Positions 3,518 to 64,000 of a DNA stretch of 64,000 nucleotides are shown piece by piece. Made by a program: the position numbers and the translations under genes. The notes under the pieces were generated by a model. The model had not been told where the DNA came from. It searched no databases and worked only from the letters and a program-made list of their open reading frames with translations. Numbering within the stretch: the stretch's first letter is position 1; each line of letters begins with the position of its first letter. Origin of the DNA: Planotetraspora phitsanulokensis (GTDB taxonomy: Bacteria > Actinomycetota > Actinomycetes > Streptosporangiales > Streptosporangiaceae); NCBI RefSeq assembly GCF_016863295.1, contig NZ_BOOP01000008.1, forward strand, positions 186,001-250,000, given 5' to 3'.

Positions 3518-6500
3518 ATGTCTCTTTCCGGACTGCTCGACCTTGTCGCCGCCGAACCGAAGCTGGCCGCCGTTCTCGAAGGGGCCGAAGGCTCCGCCGA
3601 TCCCGGCGCCGATCTGATCGCGCCGTCCGCGCTCCGGCCGCTGGCCGTGGCCGCCTTGTCCCGCGTCCGTCCCGTGCTGGCGGTGACCGCCACCGGGCGG
3701 GAGGCGGAGGACCTGGCGGCAGCCCTCACCGGCCTGGTCGACGAGAGCTCGGTGGCGGTCTTCCCCGCGTGGGAGACCCTTCCGCACGAACGGCTCTCGC
3801 CCCGCAGCGACACCGTCGGCCAGCGTCTTGCCGTACTGCGCCGGCTGGCCCATCCGGTAGCCGGCGACCCGAACGCCGGGCCGCTCCGGGTCGTCGTCGC
3901 CCCCATCCGCTCGTTGCTGCAGCCGATCGTGTCCGGCCTCGGCGACCTCGAGCCTGTACGGCTGCGCGCGGGTGACGACGCCGACCTCGACGACGTGGTG
4001 GCGCAGTTGGTCGGCAACGGCTACCACCGGGTCGACATGGTCGAAAAGCGTGGCGAGGTCGCCGTCCGCGGCGGCCTGCTCGACGTCTTCCCGCCGACCG
4101 AGGAGCACCCGCTCCGGCTGGAGTTCTGGGGTGACACGGTCGAGGAGATCCGCTGGTTCAAGGTCGCCGACCAGCGCTCTCTCGAGATCGCCCAGGACGG
4201 CCTGTTCGCCGCGCCCTGCCGTGAACTGCTGCTCACCGACGACGTACGGCTGCGCGCCCGCGAGCTGGGAGACGAGCACCCCGCGCTGAAGGAGGTGCTC
4301 GACCAGCTCGCCGAGGGTGTGCCGGTGGAGGGCATGGAGGCGTTCGCCCCGGTGCTGGCCGGCTCGATGGACCTGCTGCTCGACCACCTGCCCATCCGCT
4401 CGGCCGTGTTCGTCTGCGACCCCGAGCGCATCCGGAGCCGGGCCGTCGAGCTGGTGCGGACCAGCCAGGAGTTCATGGAGGCGTCCTGGATCACCGCCGC
4501 CGCCGGAGGGGAGGCGCCGATCGACCTCGAGGCGGCCGCGTTCCGGACGCTTGAGGACGTTCAAGGCCACGCCCGCGAGCTGGGCCAGGCGTGGTGGAGC
4601 ATCGCGCCCTTCGGCGACGGCGTCGAACTGGACGCGCACGACGTCGAGGCCTATCGCGGCGACACCCAGCGCGCGCTGGCCGACATCAAGGGCTGGCTGG
4701 GCGCGGGCAAGTCGGTCGTGCTGCTCAGCGAGGGCCACGGCCCGGCCGAGCGCATGGTCGAACTGCTCAAGGGCGTCGACGTGGCGGCCAGGCTCGCCCC
4801 CTCACTCGACGCCCCGCCGCCGCCGGACGTCGTCCAGGTCACCACCGGCCGCCTCGACCACGGCTTCGTCATCCCCGGCCTGGCCGTGCTGACCCATCTC
4901 GACCTGGTGGGGCAGAAGGCGTCGACCAAGGACATGCGGCGGCTGCCGTCGCGGCGTCGCAACATGGTGGACCCCCTCCAGCTGAAGGTCGGCGACCACG
5001 TCGTCCACGAGCAGCACGGCGTGGGCCGCTACATCGAGATGGTCCAGCGCACTATCCAGGGGGCGACCCGGGAGTACCTCGTCATCGAGTACGCCAAGGG
5101 CGACCGCCTCTACGTGCCGACCGACCAGCTCGACGAGGTCACGCGCTACGTCGGCGGCGAGGCCCCGACCCTCAACCGCATGGGCGGCGCCGACTGGGCC
5201 AAGGCCAAGACCAAGGCCAGGAAGGCCGTCAGGGAGATCGCGGGCGAGCTGATCCGGCTCTACTCGGCCCGGATGGCGTCCCCCGGCCACGCCTTCGCGG
5301 CCGACAGCCCCTGGCAGCGTGAGATGGAGGACGCCTTCCCGTACGCCGAGACCGGCGACCAGCTGGAGGCGATCGACGAGGTCAAGCGCGACATGGAGCG
5401 GCCGGTCCCGATGGACCGCCTGATCTGCGGCGACGTGGGGTACGGCAAGACCGAGATCGCGGTGCGGGCCGCGTTCAAGGCGGTGCAGGACGGCAAGCAG
5501 GTCGCGGTGCTCGTGCCGACCACGCTGCTCGTCCAGCAGCACCTGTCGACGTTCGGCGAGCGGTTCGCCAGCTTCCCCGTCGCGATCAAGCCGATGTCGC
5601 GCTTCCAGACCGACGGCGAGGTCAAGGAGACGATCGAGGGGGTCAGGAGCGGCGCCGTCGACGTCGTGATCGGCACCCACCGGCTGCTGTCGCCCGAGGT
5701 CAGGTTCAAGGACCTCGGCCTGATCATCGTGGACGAGGAGCAGCGGTTCGGCGTGGAGCACAAGGAGGCCATGAAGCACCTGCGCACCCAGGTCGACGTG
5801 CTCGCCATGTCGGCCACGCCGATCCCGCGCACGCTGGAGATGGGATTGACCGGCATCCGCGAGATGTCGACGATCCTCACCCCGCCAGAGGAGCGCCACC
5901 CGATCCTCACGTTCGTCGGACCGTACGACGAGAAGCAGATCGCGGCGGCGATCAGGCGCGAGCTGATGCGCGACGGCCAGACCTTCTTCGTGCACAACCG
6001 GGTGCGCAGCATCGACAGGGTGGCCGCGCGGCTCCACGAGCTGGTCCCCGAGGCGCGGATCGCCGTGGCGCACGGCCAGATGAACGAGCACCAGCTCGAA
6101 AAGATCATGGTGGACTTCTGGGAGCGCAACTTCGACGTGCTCGTGTGCACCACGATCGTCGAGTCGGGGCTCGACGTGCCCAACGCCAACACGCTCATCG
6201 TGGACCGCGCCGACAACTACGGCCTGTCGCAGCTGCACCAGCTCCGCGGCCGCGTGGGCCGGGGGCGCGAGCGCGGCTACGCCTACTTCCTGTATCCGCC
6301 GGAGTCCCCGCTGACCGAGACCGCCCACGAGCGGCTGGCCACGATCGCGCAGCACACCGAGATGGGCGCGGGCATGTACGTCGCGATGAAGGACCTGGAG
6401 ATCCGCGGCGCCGGAAACATCCTTGGGGCCGAGCAGTCGGGGTTCATCGCCGGCGTCGGCTTCGACCTGTACGTGCGGATGATGGCCGAGGCCGTGCAGG

Positions 6501-56741: not shown

Positions 56742-57374
56742 TCAGATCGGCAGCCCGGCCTCGAGGTAGCCGATGGCCTCGTCGATGAGGTCGGGCAACG
56801 GCTCGGCGCCGTCCTGCTCGACCCACGAGAAGATCGCGGGCAGCATCGCCCCCATCACGGCGCCCACGAAGGTCCGTACGGCGGGGCTGTCCGGGTCGCG
56901 GTCGGACCGCTCGGCGACGGCCTGCGCGAGACCGTCGATCGTGGTGAACAAGCCCTCCGCGGTCCGCACGCGCACCGCGGGGACGCTGAGCGACAACTTG
57001 GCACGGTAGAGGGCCTGGGCGAGTTCCTCGGGCGCCAGCTCGCTGAACGCCGACCGGAACGCGGCCCGGACCGCCGACAGCGGAGCGAGGTCCGCCGGTT
57101 GCCGCAGGATCGCGGCGACGAGAAGGGGGTCGTAGTCGTCCTGGATGACCACGTCCTCCTTGGTGGGGAAGTAGCGGAAGAACGTGCTCGGCGAGATCTC
57201 GGCGGCCTCCGCGATCTGCTCGACCGTCGTGGCCTCGTAGCCGCGCTCGGCGAACAGTCGCAGGGCCTGCTCCTGGATGGTCCGCCGAGTCTTGGCCTTC
57301 TTGCGCTCACGGAGGCTCGTGGCCACGTGCTCCGAGGGGCCCGGATTACGGTCGGTGCGCGGCGGTGAGCTCAT
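56742..57374 (-). CDS. TetR-family transcriptional regulator
   Basis: A 210-residue TetR regulator. The helix-turn-helix domain (about 30-75) reads ALRLFAERGYEATTVEQIAE and ISPSTFFRYFPTKEDVV; the C-terminal domain is helical. The gene follows the MFS gene on the same strand and overlaps its 3' end by 29 bases, so both are one operon. The operator at 58854-58872 before the MFS gene is its likely target. Confidence 0.9.
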   Translation of the reverse strand: MSSPPRTDRNPGPSEHVATSLRERKKAKTRRTIQEQALRLFAERGYEATTVEQIAEAAEISPSTFFRYFPTKEDVVIQDDYDPLLVAAILRQPADLAPLSAVRAAFRSAFSELAPEELAQALYRAKLSLSVPAVRVRTAEGLFTTIDGLAQAVAERSDRDPDSPAVRTFVGAVMGAMLPAIFSWVEQDGAEPLPDLIDEAIGYLEAGLPI

Positions 57375-58851
57375 GCTCCGATTCTGCCGTCTCGCCGGCC
57401 TTCGGCGTACGGCCCGGCAGGAAGATCGCCATGAGGATCGCGGCGAGAACGGCGGTCAGCCCGCAGGCGAGCAGGACCTGGTCCATCCCGGTGACGAACG
57501 CCTGCCGGGCCGCCTGGAGGAGAGGTCCGTCGCCGGCGGCAAGGGCGCCGATGATCGAGTCCTTCGCCATCTGGGGTGCGTCCTCGGGAAGGCCGTCCAC
57601 GTAGGCCGCCGACAGCAGGCTGCCGAGCACGGCCACGCCCAGCGTGCCGCCGACCTGACGCATGGTCTGCAACGTGGCGGATCCCGAGCCTGAGCGCTCC
57701 TCGGGCAGCGTGGCCAGCACGCCGTCCATGGCGGGCACCATCGCCAGCCCCACGCCGACGCCGATGACGGACAGCCAGAGGGCGACGTACCCGTAGCCCG
57801 TCGTCGCCGTGGTCATCGTGCCGAGGCCGAAGCCCCCGGCCAGCACCAGCAGGCCGGCGGCCATCATCGCCCGGAGCCCGAACCGCCGCATCAGCCGCTC
57901 ACCCGTCAGGCCGCCGGCCATGAGCCCGGCCACCATGGGAAGCACGCGGATTCCGGTGCCGAAGGCGTCGTGCCCGAGGACGGCCTGCAGGTGCTGCGGG
58001 ACGACGAACAGCACGCCCGTCATGCCCAGGCTGATGAAGGTCGCACCGATCGCGCCCCAGACGAACACGCGGTCGCCGAACAGGCCGAGGCCGATCATGG
58101 GTTGGCGGGTGCGGGTCTCCACCAGGACGAACGCCCCGAGAAGCACGATCCCCGCCCCGAGCGCGGCCACCACCCGGCCGTCGCCCCAGCCGTCCGCGGG
58201 CGCCTGGATGATCCCGTACACGAGCGCGCCGAGACCGGTCACCGACAGCAGGCTTCCGGGCACGTCCAGACGGGGGGAGGAGGGATCGCGCGACTCGGGG
58301 AGCAGCATGGCCGCAGCCAGGAAGGCGAGGACCACGACGGGGATGTTGATCAGGAAGATCGAGCCCCACCAGAAGTGGTCGAGCAGGTAACCGCCCACGA
58401 TCGGCCCGAGAGGCAGGCCGAGGGCCATGGCCGCGGTGAAGGCGGCGATGGCCCGGCCGCGCTCCGCCGGCGGGAAGATCACCGGCAGGATCGAGGTGGA
58501 CAGCGGCATGATCACCGCGGCGCCGGCTCCCATGAGCGCCCGCGCGGCGATCAGTGTGCCGATGCCGTCGGCCATCGTCGCGATGACCGAGGCGACGGCG
58601 AAGACGGCGAGGCCTCCCAGGAGCAGACGCTTGCGGCCGAACCGGTCGCCGAACGCGCCCGCCGGGAGCATCAGGGCCGCGAACAACACCATGTACGCGT
58701 CGACGATCCACTGCAGATCGCCGGTGCTCGCGCCGAGGTCGGCGGCGAGGGTGGGGAGGGCCACGTTGAGGACGGTCGCGTCCAACCCGATGACCAGCAC
58801 GCTGAGCACGAGCGCGCCGAGCGCCCACCAACGAGAACTGAGAGTCGACAT
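57346..58851 (-). CDS. MFS efflux transporter (DHA2/EmrB-QacA type)
   Basis: A 501-residue 14-helix drug:proton antiporter. Motif A is GAFGDRFGRKRLLLGGL, motif D1 is LDATVLNVALPTLAADL, and the central helices and C-terminal LPGRT region fit the family. The gene is first in an operon with its TetR regulator. Its promoter has TTGACA and TACTAT with an internal palindrome, and the ATG is at the predicted transcription start. Confidence 0.93.
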   Translation of the reverse strand: MSTLSSRWWALGALVLSVLVIGLDATVLNVALPTLAADLGASTGDLQWIVDAYMVLFAALMLPAGAFGDRFGRKRLLLGGLAVFAVASVIATMADGIGTLIAARALMGAGAAVIMPLSTSILPVIFPPAERGRAIAAFTAAMALGLPLGPIVGGYLLDHFWWGSIFLINIPVVVLAFLAAAMLLPESRDPSSPRLDVPGSLLSVTGLGALVYGIIQAPADGWGDGRVVAALGAGIVLLGAFVLVETRTRQPMIGLGLFGDRVFVWGAIGATFISLGMTGVLFVVPQHLQAVLGHDAFGTGIRVLPMVAGLMAGGLTGERLMRRFGLRAMMAAGLLVLAGGFGLGTMTTATTGYGYVALWLSVIGVGVGLAMVPAMDGVLATLPEERSGSGSATLQTMRQVGGTLGVAVLGSLLSAAYVDGLPEDAPQMAKDSIIGALAAGDGPLLQAARQAFVTGMDQVLLACGLTAVLAAILMAIFLPGRTPKAGETAESEHELTAAHRP

Positions 58852-58891: not shown

Positions 58892-58928
58892 TTGGCCGGT
58901 AGCCAGGCAGGTTGTAATCTTCATTACA
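58892..58928 (+). promoter_or_regulatory. Promoter with palindrome TGTAATCTTCATTACA before the RHH-like gene
   Basis: TTGGCC (58892-58897) and TAATCT (58915-58920) are 17 bases apart. The palindrome TGTAATCTTCATTACA (58913-58928) overlaps the -10 and touches the ATG at 58928, which again is at the expected transcription start. Repression by the encoded protein is likely. Confidence 0.65.
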
Positions 58929-59446
58929 TGGATGCAGAAGAACAGCTGCGAGGCTGGTTCGCAGGGCGCCTCCCGGAGGGCTGGTTCTCCGAACGGCCTG
59001 CGATCGTGCTCGACCGTGAGGAGATCACGGTCATCGGCGCCCTTCCGCCGCTCACCGTGACGGAGGGCCTGCCCGACGTGGAGCGGGCGGCGGCGGTCGA
59101 GGGGTACGTCGAGCGGTTTCGCGAGGAGACCCGCGAGCGCCGCATGGAGATCGCCCGTGAGGCGGAGCACCGCTTCCGGAAGAAGGTCTCCTGGGGGGTG
59201 ACGGTCGGCGGCGAGACAGTGATGTTCACCACTCTCTCCGTGCCGGTCATGACCCGCCTGCGCCAGGCCGAACGGCAGGTGCTCGACACACTCGTCGCGG
59301 CGGGAGTGGCGCGCAGTCGCAGTGACGCGCTCGCCTGGTGCGTCAGGCTCGTGGGCAAACACACCGACACCTGGCTCGCTGACCTGCGCGACGCCCTCCA
59401 GCACGTGGACCGCGTCCGTTCCGAAGGCCCCGGTCTGGTGGACTGA
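58928..59446 (+). CDS. Putative RHH-like regulator of unknown family
   Basis: A 172-residue protein. The N-terminal half (MDAEEQLRGWFAGRLPEGWF onward) is unrecognised. The C-terminal half resembles a ribbon-helix-helix: FTTLSVPVMTRLRQAERQVL followed by VAAGVARSRSDALAWCVRLV, the pattern seen in CopG/Arc-type proteins. With the palindrome over its own promoter, an autoregulated DNA-binding protein is the best reading. It is divergent from the MFS/tetR operon. Confidence 0.6.
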   Translation: MDAEEQLRGWFAGRLPEGWFSERPAIVLDREEITVIGALPPLTVTEGLPDVERAAAVEGYVERFREETRERRMEIAREAEHRFRKKVSWGVTVGGETVMFTTLSVPVMTRLRQAERQVLDTLVAAGVARSRSDALAWCVRLVGKHTDTWLADLRDALQHVDRVRSEGPGLVD

Positions 59447-59727: not shown

Positions 59728-61596
59728 GTGTCAGTTTCAGTAGAGGTTTCGAATCCGACCACCCATGCGGAGCTCGCCGCGTGGGTCGCGGAGATCGCCG
59801 AGTTGACCCAGCCCGACCGGATCGAATGGTGCGACGGTTCCGAGGCCGAATGGACCCGCCTCACCAACCTGCTCGTCGAGCAGGGCACCTTCACCCGGCT
59901 CAGCCAACGGATCAACAGCTTCTACGCCGCCTCCGACCCCAGCGACGTGGCCCGGGTCGAGGACCGCACGTTCATCTGCTCGGAGCGTGCCGAGGACGCG
60001 GGACCGACCAACAACTGGATCGCGCCCGACGAGATGCGGCGGACCTTCGCCGGCCTCTTCAGGGGCTGCATGCGCGGCCGGACCATGTACGTCGTGCCGT
60101 TCTGCATGGGACCCCTGGGCGGGAACATCTCGCAACTGGGCGTCGAGATCACCGACTCGCCGTACGTGGTGGTGTCGATGCGGATCATGACGCGGATGGG
60201 TGAGGACGCGCTGCGCCTCATCGAAGAACGCGGAGCGGCGCGACAGGCCCGAGAGAGCGAGGGACGAGCCAACGAGGGTCTGAGCAAGCGCGACCATGGG
60301 CACGACGACTACGTCAAGGCCGTCCACTCCGTGGGCGCGCCGCTGGCGCCGGGGCAGCAGGACGTTCCCTGGCCGTGCAGCCAGACGAAGTACATCAGCC
60401 ACTTCCCCGAGACCCGTGAGATCTGGTCGTACGGTTCCGGGTACGGCGGCAACGCGCTGCTCGGGAAGAAGTGCTACGCGCTGCGCATCGCCAGCGTGAT
60501 GGCCAGGGACGAGGGCTGGCTGGCCGAGCACATGCTCATCCTCAAGCTCACCCCGCCCGAGGGAGAGGCCCGCTACGTGGCCGCGGCGTTCCCCTCGGCC
60601 TGCGGCAAGACCAACCTCGCAATGCTCCGGCCGACGATCCCCGGCTGGAAGGTCGAGACGATCGGCGACGACATCGCCTGGATGCGCTTCGGCCCCGACG
60701 GGCGGCTGTACGCGATCAATCCCGAGGCCGGCTTCTTCGGCGTCGCCCCGGGCACGGGGGAGAGCACGAACGCCAACGCGGTCGAGACCCTCTGGGGCAA
60801 CAGCATCTTCACCAACGTCGCGCTCACCGACGACGGCGACGTCTGGTGGGAGGGCCTCACCGACGAGCCGCCCGCCCACCTCACCGACTGGAAGGGCCGT
60901 TCCTGGACGCCGGACTCCGGCGAGCCCGCCGCGCATCCGAACGCGCGGTTCACCACTCCCGCCGGGCAGTGCCCGACGATCGCGTCCGAATGGCAGGACC
61001 CGGCCGGTGTGCCGATCTCGGCGATCCTGTTCGGCGGCCGCAGGGCCACCGCGGTCCCGCTCGTCACCGAGTCGCTGAGCTGGCAGCACGGGGTCTTCCT
61101 CGGCGCCAACGTGGCATCGGAGAAGACCGCCGCCGCCGAGGGCAAGGTCGGCGAGCTGCGCCGCGACCCCTTCGCCATGTTGCCGTTCTGCGGCTACAAC
61201 ATGGGCGACTACTTCGCCCACTGGCTCAAGGTCGGCGAGGCCGCCGACGCGGCGAAGCTGCCGCGGATCTACTACGTCAACTGGTTCCGCAAGGACGCCG
61301 AGGGCCGGTTCGTGTGGCCGGGCTTCGGTGAGAACAGCCGCGTGCTGAAGTGGATCGTCGACCGCCTGAACGGCCAGGCGGAGGCCGTGCCGTCCCCGAT
61401 CGGGAACCTCCCGGCCGAGCTCGACACCGAGGGTCTGGACATCTCCGAGGAGCACCTGCGGCTCCTGCTGACCGTCGACCCCGAGGTCTGGCGCGAGGAG
61501 GCGTCGCTCATCCCGGCGCACTTCGAGACCTTCGGCGACCACATGCCCGAGCAGTTGTGGGCCGAGTACGACGCCCTGGTGAAACGACTCGGCTGA
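59728..61596 (+). CDS. pckG: Phosphoenolpyruvate carboxykinase (GTP)
   Basis: A 622-residue GTP-dependent PEPCK, the first step of gluconeogenesis from oxaloacetate. The kinase loop is [20 protein letters not shown] (about residue 288), with the active-site Cys and Lys, and other motifs are [39 protein letters not shown] and [19 protein letters not shown] chose the GTG at 59728, with AAGAGGAG 7 bases upstream; the frame is open for 62 more codons but that part is not family-like. Confidence 0.95.
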
Positions 61597-61600
61597 TCCT

Positions 61601-61674
61601 GTACGGCTTGCGCCACGGATGCGAAGATTCTGGGGAATCGAGCGTCCAATCAGTAGACGAGGCGCAAGCCGTAC
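61601..61674. promoter_or_regulatory. Inverted arms flanking the leader of the first TIGR04222 gene
   Basis: GTACGGCTTGCGCC (61601-61614) and GGCGCAAGCCGTAC (61661-61674) are perfect 14-base inverted arms 46 bases apart. Between them lies GCGTCCAATCAG (61642-61653), a likely -10 region of an ECF-type promoter. The left arm starts 4 bases after the pckG stop, so the pair could also serve as a terminator. Confidence 0.6.
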
Positions 61675-61722
61675 TACAGCCGCCGTGGCGTGACGCGCCT
61701 CCTCCTCCCCCAGGAGGTCGAC

Positions 61723-62685
61723 ATGGAGTACGTGCTCCTCGTCGTCGCCGCCGTGATCGCCGGATTCACCTCGTTCGTCGTAGGGACCATGCCGGCCGGC
61801 TCCGGCGAGGGGGACGGCGCCGGAGACTCCGGCAGGGGTGGGCTTGATCCGTACGAGCTGGCCTACCTCGCCGACGGTCCGCACCGCGTGGTCGACACGG
61901 CGATCGTCGTGCTCATGGACAGGGAGCTGATCCGGATCTCGCGGGGAGGCCGCGTCCACTTCGTGTCCGGGGCGGCCCGGGTCTCCGACGACGCCGTCGA
62001 GCAGGCCGTCCTCGCGTCGGTCTCCGGCCGCCCCGGGGTGAGGTCGGCCCAGCTCCGCCGGGATCTTCCGGTGAGCCCTGCGATGACCGGCCTCAAGTCG
62101 CGCCTGGTCGCCAAGGGTCTGCTGCTCTCGGACGGGACTGTGGACAAGCGCCGACTGGAGGCCGGCGTGCTGACGGGGTTCATCGTGTTCGAGTGCCTCG
62201 TCGTCGCGCTTGCGCTACTGGTGCAGGTCATCGGTCTCGTCTCCTGGAGCGTGCCGTCCGTGGCGGCGGTGATCGTGAATGTCCTGGCGGCCCTGTACGG
62301 CATCCGCGTCCGCCGGCGCCACGCGCTCCAGATGACGAGCGTGCTCACCCCGGAAGGACAGCGAGCCGTGCAGGACGCCCGGGCCCGTACGGCGCCCTCC
62401 TCCGCGTCGCGCGAGCCGTCGCAGCGGACGGCGGGACGGCGGGCCCGCGCCGACGTGGCGAGACGCCCCGCCGGCGCCGCCCTGGCGGTCGGCGTGGCGA
62501 TCTACGGGCTGGGGGCGCTGCCGGATCGGGGGATCGCGCAGCAGATCGCGACCGAGGTCGATCGCGATGACGCGCGGGAGAAGGGGCAGGACACCGGCCC
62601 CGCGGCCGGAGGCGGGGGCGCCACGCCGGGGTGCGGCGGCTGCGGCGGCGGGTGCGGGGGAGGCTGCGGCGGATGCGGAGGCTGA
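61723..62685 (+). CDS. TIGR04222 membrane protein with Gly/Cys-rich tail (copy 1)
   Basis: A 320-residue membrane protein. Helix 1 is at about 3-24. The cytosolic TIGR04222 core reads LDPYELAYLADGPHRVVDTA and VVLMDRELIRISRGGRVHFV, with MTGLKSRLVAKGLLL. Two helices follow (about 150-190), then a hydrophobic segment near 255-270. The tail contains TPGCGGCGGGCGGGCGGCGG, five Cys in Gly runs. The ATG has AGGAGG 6 bases upstream. It shares core and start with the next gene, so the two are paralogues. The tail is a plausible substrate for the MNIO enzyme downstream. Confidence 0.85.
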   Translation: MEYVLLVVAAVIAGFTSFVVGTMPAGSGEGDGAGDSGRGGLDPYELAYLADGPHRVVDTAIVVLMDRELIRISRGGRVHFVSGAARVSDDAVEQAVLASVSGRPGVRSAQLRRDLPVSPAMTGLKSRLVAKGLLLSDGTVDKRRLEAGVLTGFIVFECLVVALALLVQVIGLVSWSVPSVAAVIVNVLAALYGIRVRRRHALQMTSVLTPEGQRAVQDARARTAPSSASREPSQRTAGRRARADVARRPAGAALAVGVAIYGLGALPDRGIAQQIATEVDRDDAREKGQDTGPAAGGGGATPGCGGCGGGCGGGCGGCGG

Positions 62686-62763
62686 GATCCCGCCACACGG
62701 CGATCGGGGGCGGCCCGCCGTCGATCCCGCAGGGCGTGTGCGCCCCGCCGCCGATGCCGTACA

Positions 62764-62831
62764 GGCGTGCGCCCCGGGGGGAAACTTCCGGCGATTCCCG
62801 CGCGTCTAATCAGGTGGACGGGGCGCGAGCC
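62764..62831. promoter_or_regulatory. Leader of the second TIGR04222 gene, promoter flanked by inverted arms
   Basis: GGCGTGCGCCCC (62764-62775) and GGGGCGCGAGCC (62820-62831) pair with one mismatch and one G-T. GGAAAC (62780-62785) and CGTCTAA (62803-62809) are 17 bases apart and look like an ECF-type promoter. The placement of the arms relative to CGTC matches the leader of the first copy within one base. Confidence 0.55.
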
Positions 62832-62889
62832 GAACGGCCGGCAGGGCAGTGGTGAAGCGCTTCCTCCTCTCCCCCCAAGGAGGGCGTTC

Positions 62890-63879
62890 ATGGAGTACGC
62901 ACTTCTCGTCGTCGCGATCGTCGTCGCGGTCCTCGCCAGGAACGCGGCGTCGGCCTTCACCCGGGAGCACCGCAGGATCCGGTCGGTCTCCGGCTTCAGC
63001 CGGGACGATCTCACCCACTACGAACTCGCCTATCTCGCGGGCGGCCCGCGTCGTGTGATCAACACGGCGATCGCGCTGCTCGTGGAGCGGGAACTCGTCC
63101 GCGTCGCGCGGGGAGGCCGCGTCACCGTCGTCGCCGGGACCGCTCCGCCCGCGAACGGAGTCGAGCGGGCCGTGCTGGACCTGGCCGCCGTGCCGGGAGG
63201 GCGCTCGGCGTCGGAGATCCGCCACGAGGTCGCCGGCGGCGCGGCGATGACCGACATCAAGCTGCGACTGATCGCCCGAGGGCTTCTCCTCCCGGACGGC
63301 GCGCTCAACGGCCCGAGCGCGATCAACACCAGGTTGGGGTTCCTGGTCGCCCTCGCCTTCGTGGTCACGGCCGTCTCCATCGTGTTTCCGCTCGCGGGCC
63401 TCGTCCCGTGGAACCCGTCCTCCGTCGGTGCGCTGCTCGTGGCAGGCGTCACCGCCGTGTCCGGGCTGCGCGCCCACCGCCGTTACTCGAGGTCGCTGCC
63501 GGGTCTTCTCACCACGAGCGGGCACGAGGCCCTCCAGACCGCGCAGGTGCGGAACGCGCGCACACGGGCCGAGCCGGCCTCCGTCATGGCGGACGGCGCG
63601 CTCTACACCGGCGTGGCGGGCGGCGTCGCCCTCTACGGCCTGGGTGAGATGCCCGATCAGACCGTCGCGACCGAAATCGACCAAGAACGCGATCACGGCG
63701 GAGGAGGTGCCGGCGGCTGCGCGTCGGGGAGTTGCGGAGGCGGCTCCTCGGACTGGGGGACCGGATCCGTCGGGTCCGACCACGGCGGCGGCCATTCGTG
63801 CGGTGGTCATTCCGGCTGCGGGGGCGGTTCGAGTTGCGGCGGAGGAGGGTGCGGCGGTGGCTGCGGAGGCGGAAGCTGA
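62890..63879 (+). CDS. TIGR04222 membrane protein with Gly/Cys-rich tail (copy 2)
   Basis: A 329-residue paralogue of copy 1. It opens MEYALLVVAIVVAVLARNAA and has the core LTHYELAYLAGGPRRVINTA and LLVERELVRVARGGRVTVVA, then the same helix pair. The tail has seven Cys among Gly, Ser and His, in pieces such as GCASGSCGGG, GGGHSCGGHSGCGGG and CGGGGCGGGCGGGS. The ATG has AAGGAGG upstream. The last 23 bases overlap the DUF692 gene, so translation is coupled. Confidence 0.87.
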   Translation: MEYALLVVAIVVAVLARNAASAFTREHRRIRSVSGFSRDDLTHYELAYLAGGPRRVINTAIALLVERELVRVARGGRVTVVAGTAPPANGVERAVLDLAAVPGGRSASEIRHEVAGGAAMTDIKLRLIARGLLLPDGALNGPSAINTRLGFLVALAFVVTAVSIVFPLAGLVPWNPSSVGALLVAGVTAVSGLRAHRRYSRSLPGLLTTSGHEALQTAQVRNARTRAEPASVMADGALYTGVAGGVALYGLGEMPDQTVATEIDQERDHGGGGAGGCASGSCGGGSSDWGTGSVGSDHGGGHSCGGHSGCGGGSSCGGGGCGGGCGGGS

Positions 63880-64000
63880 GCGGGCCGAGCTGGGAGTCGG
63901 CATCGGGTGGCGCTCGGAGATCGACCTGACCGTCGAGCGGATGGACGTCGACTTCGTCGAGGTGATCGCGGAGAACGTCGACCCCGCCCGGCTGCCGGAG
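63857..64000 (+). CDS. DUF692 (MNIO family) protein, N-terminal part (runs off right edge)
   Basis: The frame starts at GTG 63857, with GGAGGAGG 8 bases upstream inside the preceding gene, and continues off the window. The visible 48 residues include AELGVGIGWRSEIDLTVERM and VDFVEVIAENVD, which match the start of the DUF692/MbnB-like fold (an iron-dependent TIM barrel). MNIO enzymes convert peptide Cys or Asn residues to heterocycles and other products. Overlap with a Cys-tailed protein is the typical clue to substrate pairing. Confidence 0.75.
   Translation, partial: MAAEAEAERAELGVGIGWRSEIDLTVERMDVDFVEVIAENVDPARLPE

Follow-up and report, generated by a model that had tools for sequence, protein, structure and literature searches.

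A probable MNIO modification operon with Cys-tailed TIGR04222 membrane proteins as candidate substrates in Planotetraspora phitsanulokensis

The MNIO (DUF692) systems TglH/TglI and MbnB/MbnC have small peptides as substrates and use partners other than the one described below. The 64,000-nucleotide stretch of Planotetraspora phitsanulokensis DNA analyzed here (the window; contig NZ_BOOP01000008.1, positions 186,001 to 250,000, or C8:186001-250000 of its own 9.17-Mb genome, G000) ends within an MNIO gene that overlaps the second of two genes, T1 and T2, for TIGR04222 membrane proteins, and the run continues in the stretch L002 (C8:246001-262000; L002 coordinate = window coordinate − 60000, the common 4000 bases being identical). 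The sequence shows a single gene run that codes for a pair of TIGR04222 proteins, each with a Gly/Ser/Cys tail, for a complete MNIO, and for a short partner of DUF2063-like type. The locus is probably an operon for MNIO modification, in which C-terminal tails of membrane proteins serve as the substrates.

Closest to this arrangement are the MNIO-TIGR04222 clusters of Antoine et al. (2025; PMC12452194), the only match of a literature search for MNIOs with transmembrane proteins in Actinomycetota. In the passages of that paper on these clusters, TIGR04222 membrane proteins with Cys tails are proposed as MNIO substrates—that is, the substrate idea was already published as a hypothesis in 2025. 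The present locus has the features that define such a cluster, namely a Cys-tailed TIGR04222 gene beside an MNIO gene and no DUF2063, and it shares with the clusters of these passages the Cys-rich C-terminus, the adjoining MNIO, the absence of a signal peptide, and the mostly actinomycetotal setting, with a PME-type 2 partner in some of them. There, the modification is left open, the tails are predicted to be periplasmic, and many clusters appear partner-less, whereas here the tails are argued to be cytosolic and a short partner was found in nearly every locus. The abstract, these passages, and section 18 of the paper contain no statement on TIGR04222-DUF2207 kinship or on cytosolic tails. New here are the contrast in tails with and without the enzyme, including its Asp/Ser-for-Cys control, a short partner found nearly everywhere in the sample, the kinship to DUF2207 with its consequence for topology, and a promoter motif.

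With respect to bufferins and captophorins (BufB, FonBC), the parts of PMC13097082 that deal with them likewise describe an MNIO and a DUF2063-type partner acting on Cys, with a 5-thiooxazole product, copper binding, Sec-signal precursors, and a full DUF2063-RRE partner. For fontiphorin, the same parts report conversion by the MNIO of Lys-Cys sites (Lys-Cys-Gly in the peptide shown) to 5-thiooxazoles, with a change of −4 Da each and binding of copper by the product. In contrast, the candidate substrate here is a large membrane protein without a signal peptide, the partner is too short for a second domain, and the MNIO scores below the BufB cut-off. The DUF2207 proteins (PF09972/PF20990), as described in portions of PMC10457818, resemble TIGR04222 in a winged-helix-like part and a transmembrane hairpin but differ in a large extracellular N-terminal domain, the likeness being seen by profile comparison only. 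Should the tails be modified where they stand, the reach of MNIO chemistry would extend from released peptides to the post-translational modification of membrane proteins. Topology sets the possible role of the product, since a tail on the inside would serve the cell itself in buffering or sensing metal, and the contrast between Cys and Asp/Ser, together with the DUF2207 kinship, makes the questions of modification and topology directly testable.

Both T1 and T2 score above the NCBIfam TIGR04222 cut-off (43 bits; Table 1), and their tails contain five Cys without His and seven Cys with four His, respectively, in agreement with an earlier note on the window, which had described two such proteins with five- and seven-Cys tails. 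The overlap that it had reported between the second gene and a DUF692 start also holds, with the GTG start of the MNIO gene (63857) overlapping the T2 stop (63877-63879) by 23 bases. Each TIGR04222 protein is predicted to begin with one transmembrane helix at the N-terminus, followed by a pair of winged-helix-like segments and a transmembrane hairpin; a basic linker then leads to a short helix, and the tail is disordered.

A Cys tail was defined by at least three Cys and at least two Cys-Gly within the last 60 residues. In a first sample of 200 genomes of the order, TIGR04222 was found in 145 and PF05114 in 90; from 142 of these genomes, 199 TIGR04222 proteins were collected, and removal of six frames that ran off the end of a contig or stretch left 193. 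Such a tail was present in 93 of 101 proteins encoded at the same locus as an MNIO, 8 of 25 with a non-bufferin MNIO elsewhere in the genome, 0 of 5 with a bufferin-type MNIO only, and 1 of 62 without an MNIO; the last two groups combined amount to 1 of 67, and the exception (L168) is not Gly-rich. Comparison of the MNIO-locus proteins with these two groups gave a Fisher p of 2e-36, a value that ignores kinship. Counted per genome on closed frames, tails were found in 81 of 83 genomes with a non-bufferin MNIO (the exceptions being G190 and G147), 1 of 53 without, and 0 of 3 with the bufferin type only, and at least one Cys-Gly tail occurs at 79 of the 80 MNIO loci with a TIGR04222 gene. Cys tails at MNIO loci exceed chance, as other closed stop-to-stop frames of at least 200 residues (six frames, loci L036-L172) end in such a tail in 17 of 1780 cases.

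The 93 tails contain 459 Cys in their last 60 residues, followed by Gly in 400 cases, Ala in 29, and Ser in 25, and preceded by Gly in 255 and Ser in 158. CxxGxCG is present in 52 tails and a terminal Cys-Gly run in 90, and the median number of Cys in these proteins is 1 in the TIGR04222 domain and 5 in the tail. When tails rich in Gly (35% or more over the final 40 residues) were compared, the 91 at MNIO loci were found to have 3.98 Cys each, with none lacking Cys, whereas the 29 in MNIO-less genomes have 0.10 Cys each, 27 of them being Cys-free, and contain Asp and Ser instead. Thus, Cys does not come automatically with Gly codons. The lineages behind this contrast are few: 23 of the 29 tails come from a single genus (g3), and of the other six, four lack Cys.

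The MNIO gene was found complete on extension to the right, as the earlier note had suggested checking. Its product matches PF05114 over the full length (261.6 bits, cut-off 25; model positions 1-262 of 263) and aligns to TglH (8hci), 3bww, and the MbnB chains 7dz9 and 7tcr, sharing with TglH/TglI and MbnB/MbnC the enzyme family and conserved metal-site positions. H63, H98, E143, D176, N179, H207, D220, H222, and E249 are invariant in 25 aligned relatives and identical in TglH (8hci); E39 is also invariant among the relatives, but is Asp in TglH and MbnB. These invariant positions presumably include the iron ligands, and the iron-binding His/Asp residues, the lack of which the earlier note would have held against its own proposal, are on this assumption in place. 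Identity of the enzyme to its closest named relatives, which are from Planotetraspora, is 94–95% in three species and 86–87% in two others. In one locus (L116, genome G055), the MNIO match is split over two frames, by sequencing error or decay, and both TIGR04222 tails are intact.

Of the further genes that the earlier note proposed to look for to the right of the MNIO, the DUF2063-like partner was found directly 3′ of it, but no transporter was: between PEPCK and PhoH2, no transporter or exporter, peptidase, or second modification gene was seen. The partner frame has no match in Pfam or PHROGs and a single off-family one in NCBIfam (15.8 bits against a cut-off of 881), and PF09836 (DUF2063, the PME-type 1 partner) matches neither the partner nor anything else in G000. 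When a partner profile was compared by hhalign with six DUF2063 proteins from loci of the bufferin type, the two were collinear over 92 columns (E 2.2e-4, probability 45%); among 20 column-shuffled controls, the lowest E was 0.016. A model of the L174 orthologue shows four helices (mean predicted local distance difference test score, pLDDT, 88), without a match in a Foldseek search of the PDB, and a PDB sequence search with the partner profile likewise returned nothing. The partner may thus be one of the short PME-type 2 partners in the passages of Antoine et al. (PMC12452194). It is present in 82 of 89 MNIO loci. Among the 80 that have a TIGR04222 gene, 79 contain it, the exception (L062) being cut by a contig end; the remaining six partner-less loci also lack TIGR04222. 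Six PF05114 loci in five genomes (L117, L121-L125) were noted that have neither TIGR04222 nor the short partner.

Table 1. Positions of the features of the locus in the window and in the overlapping stretch L002
Feature	Position	Strand	Remarks
PEPCK (GTP)	window 59782-61593 (stretch searched)		upstream of T1
T1, TIGR04222 membrane protein, 320 residues, ATG	window 61723..62685	+	NCBIfam TIGR04222 108.7 bits; C-terminal tail with 5 Cys
T1 terminal Cys/Gly run, 18 residues, 5 Cys	window 62629..62682	+	codon table
Promoter-like motif GAAAC-N17-CGTCTA	window 62781..62808	+	109 bases 5′ of T2 start
T2, TIGR04222 membrane protein, 329 residues, ATG	window 62890..63879	+	NCBIfam TIGR04222 116.5 bits; tail with 7 Cys, 4 His
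T2 tail, CASGSCGGG element and terminal SSCGGGGCGGGCGGGS	window 63700..63876	+	disordered in structure model
MNIO (DUF692), GTG start 63857, to L002:4696, 279 residues	63857..64000 in window	+	PF05114 E 8.7e-78; TglH 8hci alignment E 1.2e-30
Partner frame	L002:4674 or 4689 to 5075, start uncertain		3′ of MNIO
UppS-like isoprenyl transferase	L002:5088-5891		
PhoH2	L002:6050-7462 (stretch searched)		

Judged from sequence, the tails are very probably the MNIO substrates. With help from the partner, the MNIO would oxidize the tail Cys, which mostly follow Gly or Ser and precede Gly; the likeliest product is the 5-thiooxazole made by the nearest characterized MNIOs (about −4 Da each); on this analogy, the 5-thiooxazole is given an about even chance. 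The tail would be neither cleaved nor exported and, as seems quite probable, would remain attached to its membrane protein, more likely on the cytosolic side. By the leader-release criterion of ribosomally synthesized and post-translationally modified peptides, the candidate substrates are membrane proteins of 320–329 residues, with no peptidase gene from PEPCK to PhoH2. The modified tail would bind a soft metal such as copper, metal binding being a prediction with evenly balanced prospects.

With respect to topology, most of the 46 TIGR04222 members in the alignment show three clear transmembrane segments (TM1, TM2, and TM3); over this set, the mean number of Lys/Arg is 16.8 in the winged-helix region, 7.4 in the linker after TM3, and 0.2 in the TM2-TM3 loop. 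On an approximate and rough insertion-energy scale, TM1-TM3 have medians of −0.7 to +0.7, with 63–78% of members below +1 (22–37% miss +1), whereas a fourth segment (reference residues 233-252) has a median of +3.9 with 0 of 46 below +1. In a model of T2 (mean pLDDT 80.5), this segment is a 15-residue helix and the tail is disordered. Comparison of the TIGR04222 profile (46 rows) with that of DUF2207_C (18 rows) gave a probability of 94% and E 9.6e-8 over 148 columns (hhalign), ten shuffled controls giving E of at least 0.44; the PF20990 (DUF2207_C) cut-off of 33 bits was not reached by the single sequences (T1 11.1 bits, T2 none listed). By profile comparison, TIGR04222 is distantly related to the DUF2207 C-terminal half. 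In the portion of the DUF2207 paper giving a Protter prediction (PMC10457818), the Gly/Ser-rich C-terminus is placed inside (printed "intercellular", taken as intracellular). Because of this kinship, the charge distribution, and the short fourth helix, an arrangement with the N-terminus out and both the winged helices and the tail in is favored, and the modeled tail is somewhat more probably cytosolic than periplasmic.

Weighing against a cytosolic tail, Antoine et al. (2025) predict, in the passages of PMC12452194 on these clusters, periplasmic tails from predicted topology. On that published reading, the substrates are the same but the short fourth helix also spans the membrane, so that the tail, once modified, is exposed on the outside in the manner of an exported bufferin. 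This is a possible though doubtful alternative: the fourth segment is indeed hydrophobic (median best Kyte-Doolittle value 1.12, about 2 in single members), but its insertion energy lies above +1 in every member on the rough scale used, the modeled helix has just 15 residues, and the DUF2207 kin are predicted with their Gly/Ser-rich C-terminus inside. As a separate matter, helix 4 was considered as an MNIO-specific leader and ruled out, VALYGLGxxxDxxL-like segments being present also in Cys-less and unlinked members.

Several points weigh against the tails as substrates altogether. We infer the modification of the tail Cys from sequence, and the chemistry may differ from that of bufferin maturases because the best NCBIfam model for the MNIO, that of the bufferin maturase BufB (NF050167), gives 186.4 bits, below its cut-off of 310. 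Cys tails are lacking in 17 of 25 TIGR04222 proteins encoded elsewhere in MNIO-bearing genomes and in 8 of 101 at MNIO loci, of which L052, L069, and L091 keep 5, 3, and 2 tail Cys. Furthermore, in a second sample (296 genomes of the class, some repeated from the first; 48 further loci, 47 of which yielded 52 proteins, none of them from the family of the window), 17 of the 19 proteins in MNIO genomes that lack a Cys tail belong to a Streptomyces-like genus (g64), 16 of them being tail-less and one (L345) having a Ser/Cys-rich tail.

These exceptions bear on the alternative that Cys tails bind metal or form disulfides unmodified, with the MNIO acting on another, unseen substrate. Tails with Cys, Gly, and His could bind metal without being modified, such a tail is present on 8 of the 25 TIGR04222 proteins away from an MNIO locus, and many of the TIGR04222 proteins near an MNIO in the g64 genomes are tail-less. 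However, of the nine tails not encoded at an MNIO locus, eight come from genomes that have an MNIO at another place and the ninth is not Gly-rich; MNIO-less kin have Asp and Ser rather than Cys in their Gly-rich tails; and the T2 and MNIO genes overlap. Unmodified tails are accordingly considered unlikely. In one Streptomyces-like locus (L351; genome G255), the MNIO lies just upstream, followed by the partner (by eye), a DUF4142 protein, the tail-less TIGR04222 protein, and a hydrolase-like gene (by eye), and the fetched L351 stretch contains no Cys-rich frame.

Also counting against the tails as substrates, the first-sample contrast is not significant when corrected for kinship, for which the test is too small. 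Supported independent pairs on the domain tree that differ in MNIO linkage number 7, of which 3.5 agree with the link and 0.5 oppose it (median p 0.25); 12 pairs differ in the tail, 4.4 agreeing and 0.2 opposing (median p 0.125), and 3 in the presence of an MNIO in the genome, 1 agreeing and none opposing. The tail-MNIO link thus rests on few independent tree changes, none of the tests being significant, and the tail-enzyme link behind the earlier note's proposal stands by plain counts but not significantly after this correction. In the second sample, the MNIO genomes contributed 37 proteins, 18 with Cys tails, and the MNIO-less genomes 15, one with a Cys tail; several of these 15 are weak or odd frames (e.g., L367, L368, and L371). 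The lone MNIO-less exception (G276) is explained by a contig end, into which an MNIO start runs (residues 12-41, 77% identity, E 4.6e-11). A loss was also observed: in G190 (L118), the order PEPCK, TIGR04222, UppS (by eye) is kept, but the MNIO and partner are gone (best tblastn E 0.09) and another open reading frame (ORF) is there, and the TIGR04222 protein stops exactly where the first Cys of its L081 relative starts. The sole PF05114 gene of G190 lies elsewhere (L117) and is of the type without TIGR04222 or partner. A single deletion could account for the joint loss of tail Cys, MNIO, and partner. That shared ancestry is the whole cause, one TIGR04222 clade happening to hold both tail and MNIO, is very improbable, for although the tree changes are few, the sign tests nonsignificant, and genus g3 the source of 30 MNIO-less proteins and most Gly-rich Cys-poor tails, the pattern recurs in other families of the class and the three elements vanished together in G190 with PEPCK and UppS kept, one deletion being possible.

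If the substrate and topology readings are taken together, a tentative picture is that a DUF2207-like membrane protein acquired an MNIO, by which its cytosolic Gly-rich tail, with Asp/Ser in MNIO-less kin, may have become a row of thiooxazoles—a membrane-tethered, intracellular, multi-site metallophore, neither cleaved nor secreted and possibly activated through an ECF sigma factor, with a partner that would have lost the RRE domain and winged helices of the substrate that may serve in docking. For the docking step, no extra conservation was seen: nine conserved positions of the winged helices are common with MNIO-less kin and five are not, too few for a docking claim.

With respect to regulation, [GT][AGC]AAC-N16-18-CGTC[TA], whose shape we take to resemble ECF sigma promoters, was found before 37 of 87 TIGR04222 starts of named relatives (−250 to +30; 88 starts, one dropped). 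In shuffles the frequency is about 1%, and the pattern is present in 44 of 2720 random windows and in none of the 87 regions read on the opposite strand. Part of the rows (24 of 50) served to define the motif, which recurred in 13 of 37 new ones. In the own genome, the strict form occurs once, 5′ of T2, with one site also for the backward control, and allowing one mismatch gave three sites against five control sites. Because these sites do not exceed the control sites, no regulon or sigma factor for the T2 motif was identified by the own-genome pattern search.

Other searches with T2 gave little: no PHROGs phage family matched T2 or the partner, plasmid records yielded one weak match to the T2 domain, a PDB fold search with the T2 and partner models returned nothing significant, and a PDB sequence search with the TIGR04222 profile gave weak winged-helix matches (best HosA, E 5.5e-4) beside low-complexity ones. 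The third TIGR04222 protein of the own genome (L135, G000:C21:48500-56000) has a 74-residue tail without Cys, and similar Cys-less tails occur in four other Planotetraspora genomes (L139-L142). At L040, L044, L047, L057, L058, L070, and L095, a second, shorter TIGR04222 copy lies 3′ of the partner, its match ending before the TM2-TM3 hairpin; five of these seven have tails with zero or one Cys.

PEPCK was matched in at least 58 and UppS in at least 42 of the 80 TIGR04222-bearing MNIO loci, both being lower bounds because the fetched stretches are short. Upstream of PEPCK lies a gene for an AbmR-type ATP-binding transcription factor (window 58928-59443; NCBIfam, 268 bits), and beyond it a minus-strand ORF (57346-58851), MFS transporter-like by eye, that adjoins a TetR-like ORF (56742-57374). 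No Rfam elements were found in L002:1-6200; a 14-bp inverted repeat (GTACGGCTTGCGCC / GGCGCAAGCCGTAC) with a 46-base loop, without an Rfam match, lies between PEPCK and T1 (window 61601-61674). In addition, CCTCCT...AGGAGG was observed just 5′ of the T1 and T2 starts (61698-61722 and 62860-62889), where it may form a hairpin over the ribosome-binding site, and is present in other Planotetraspora.

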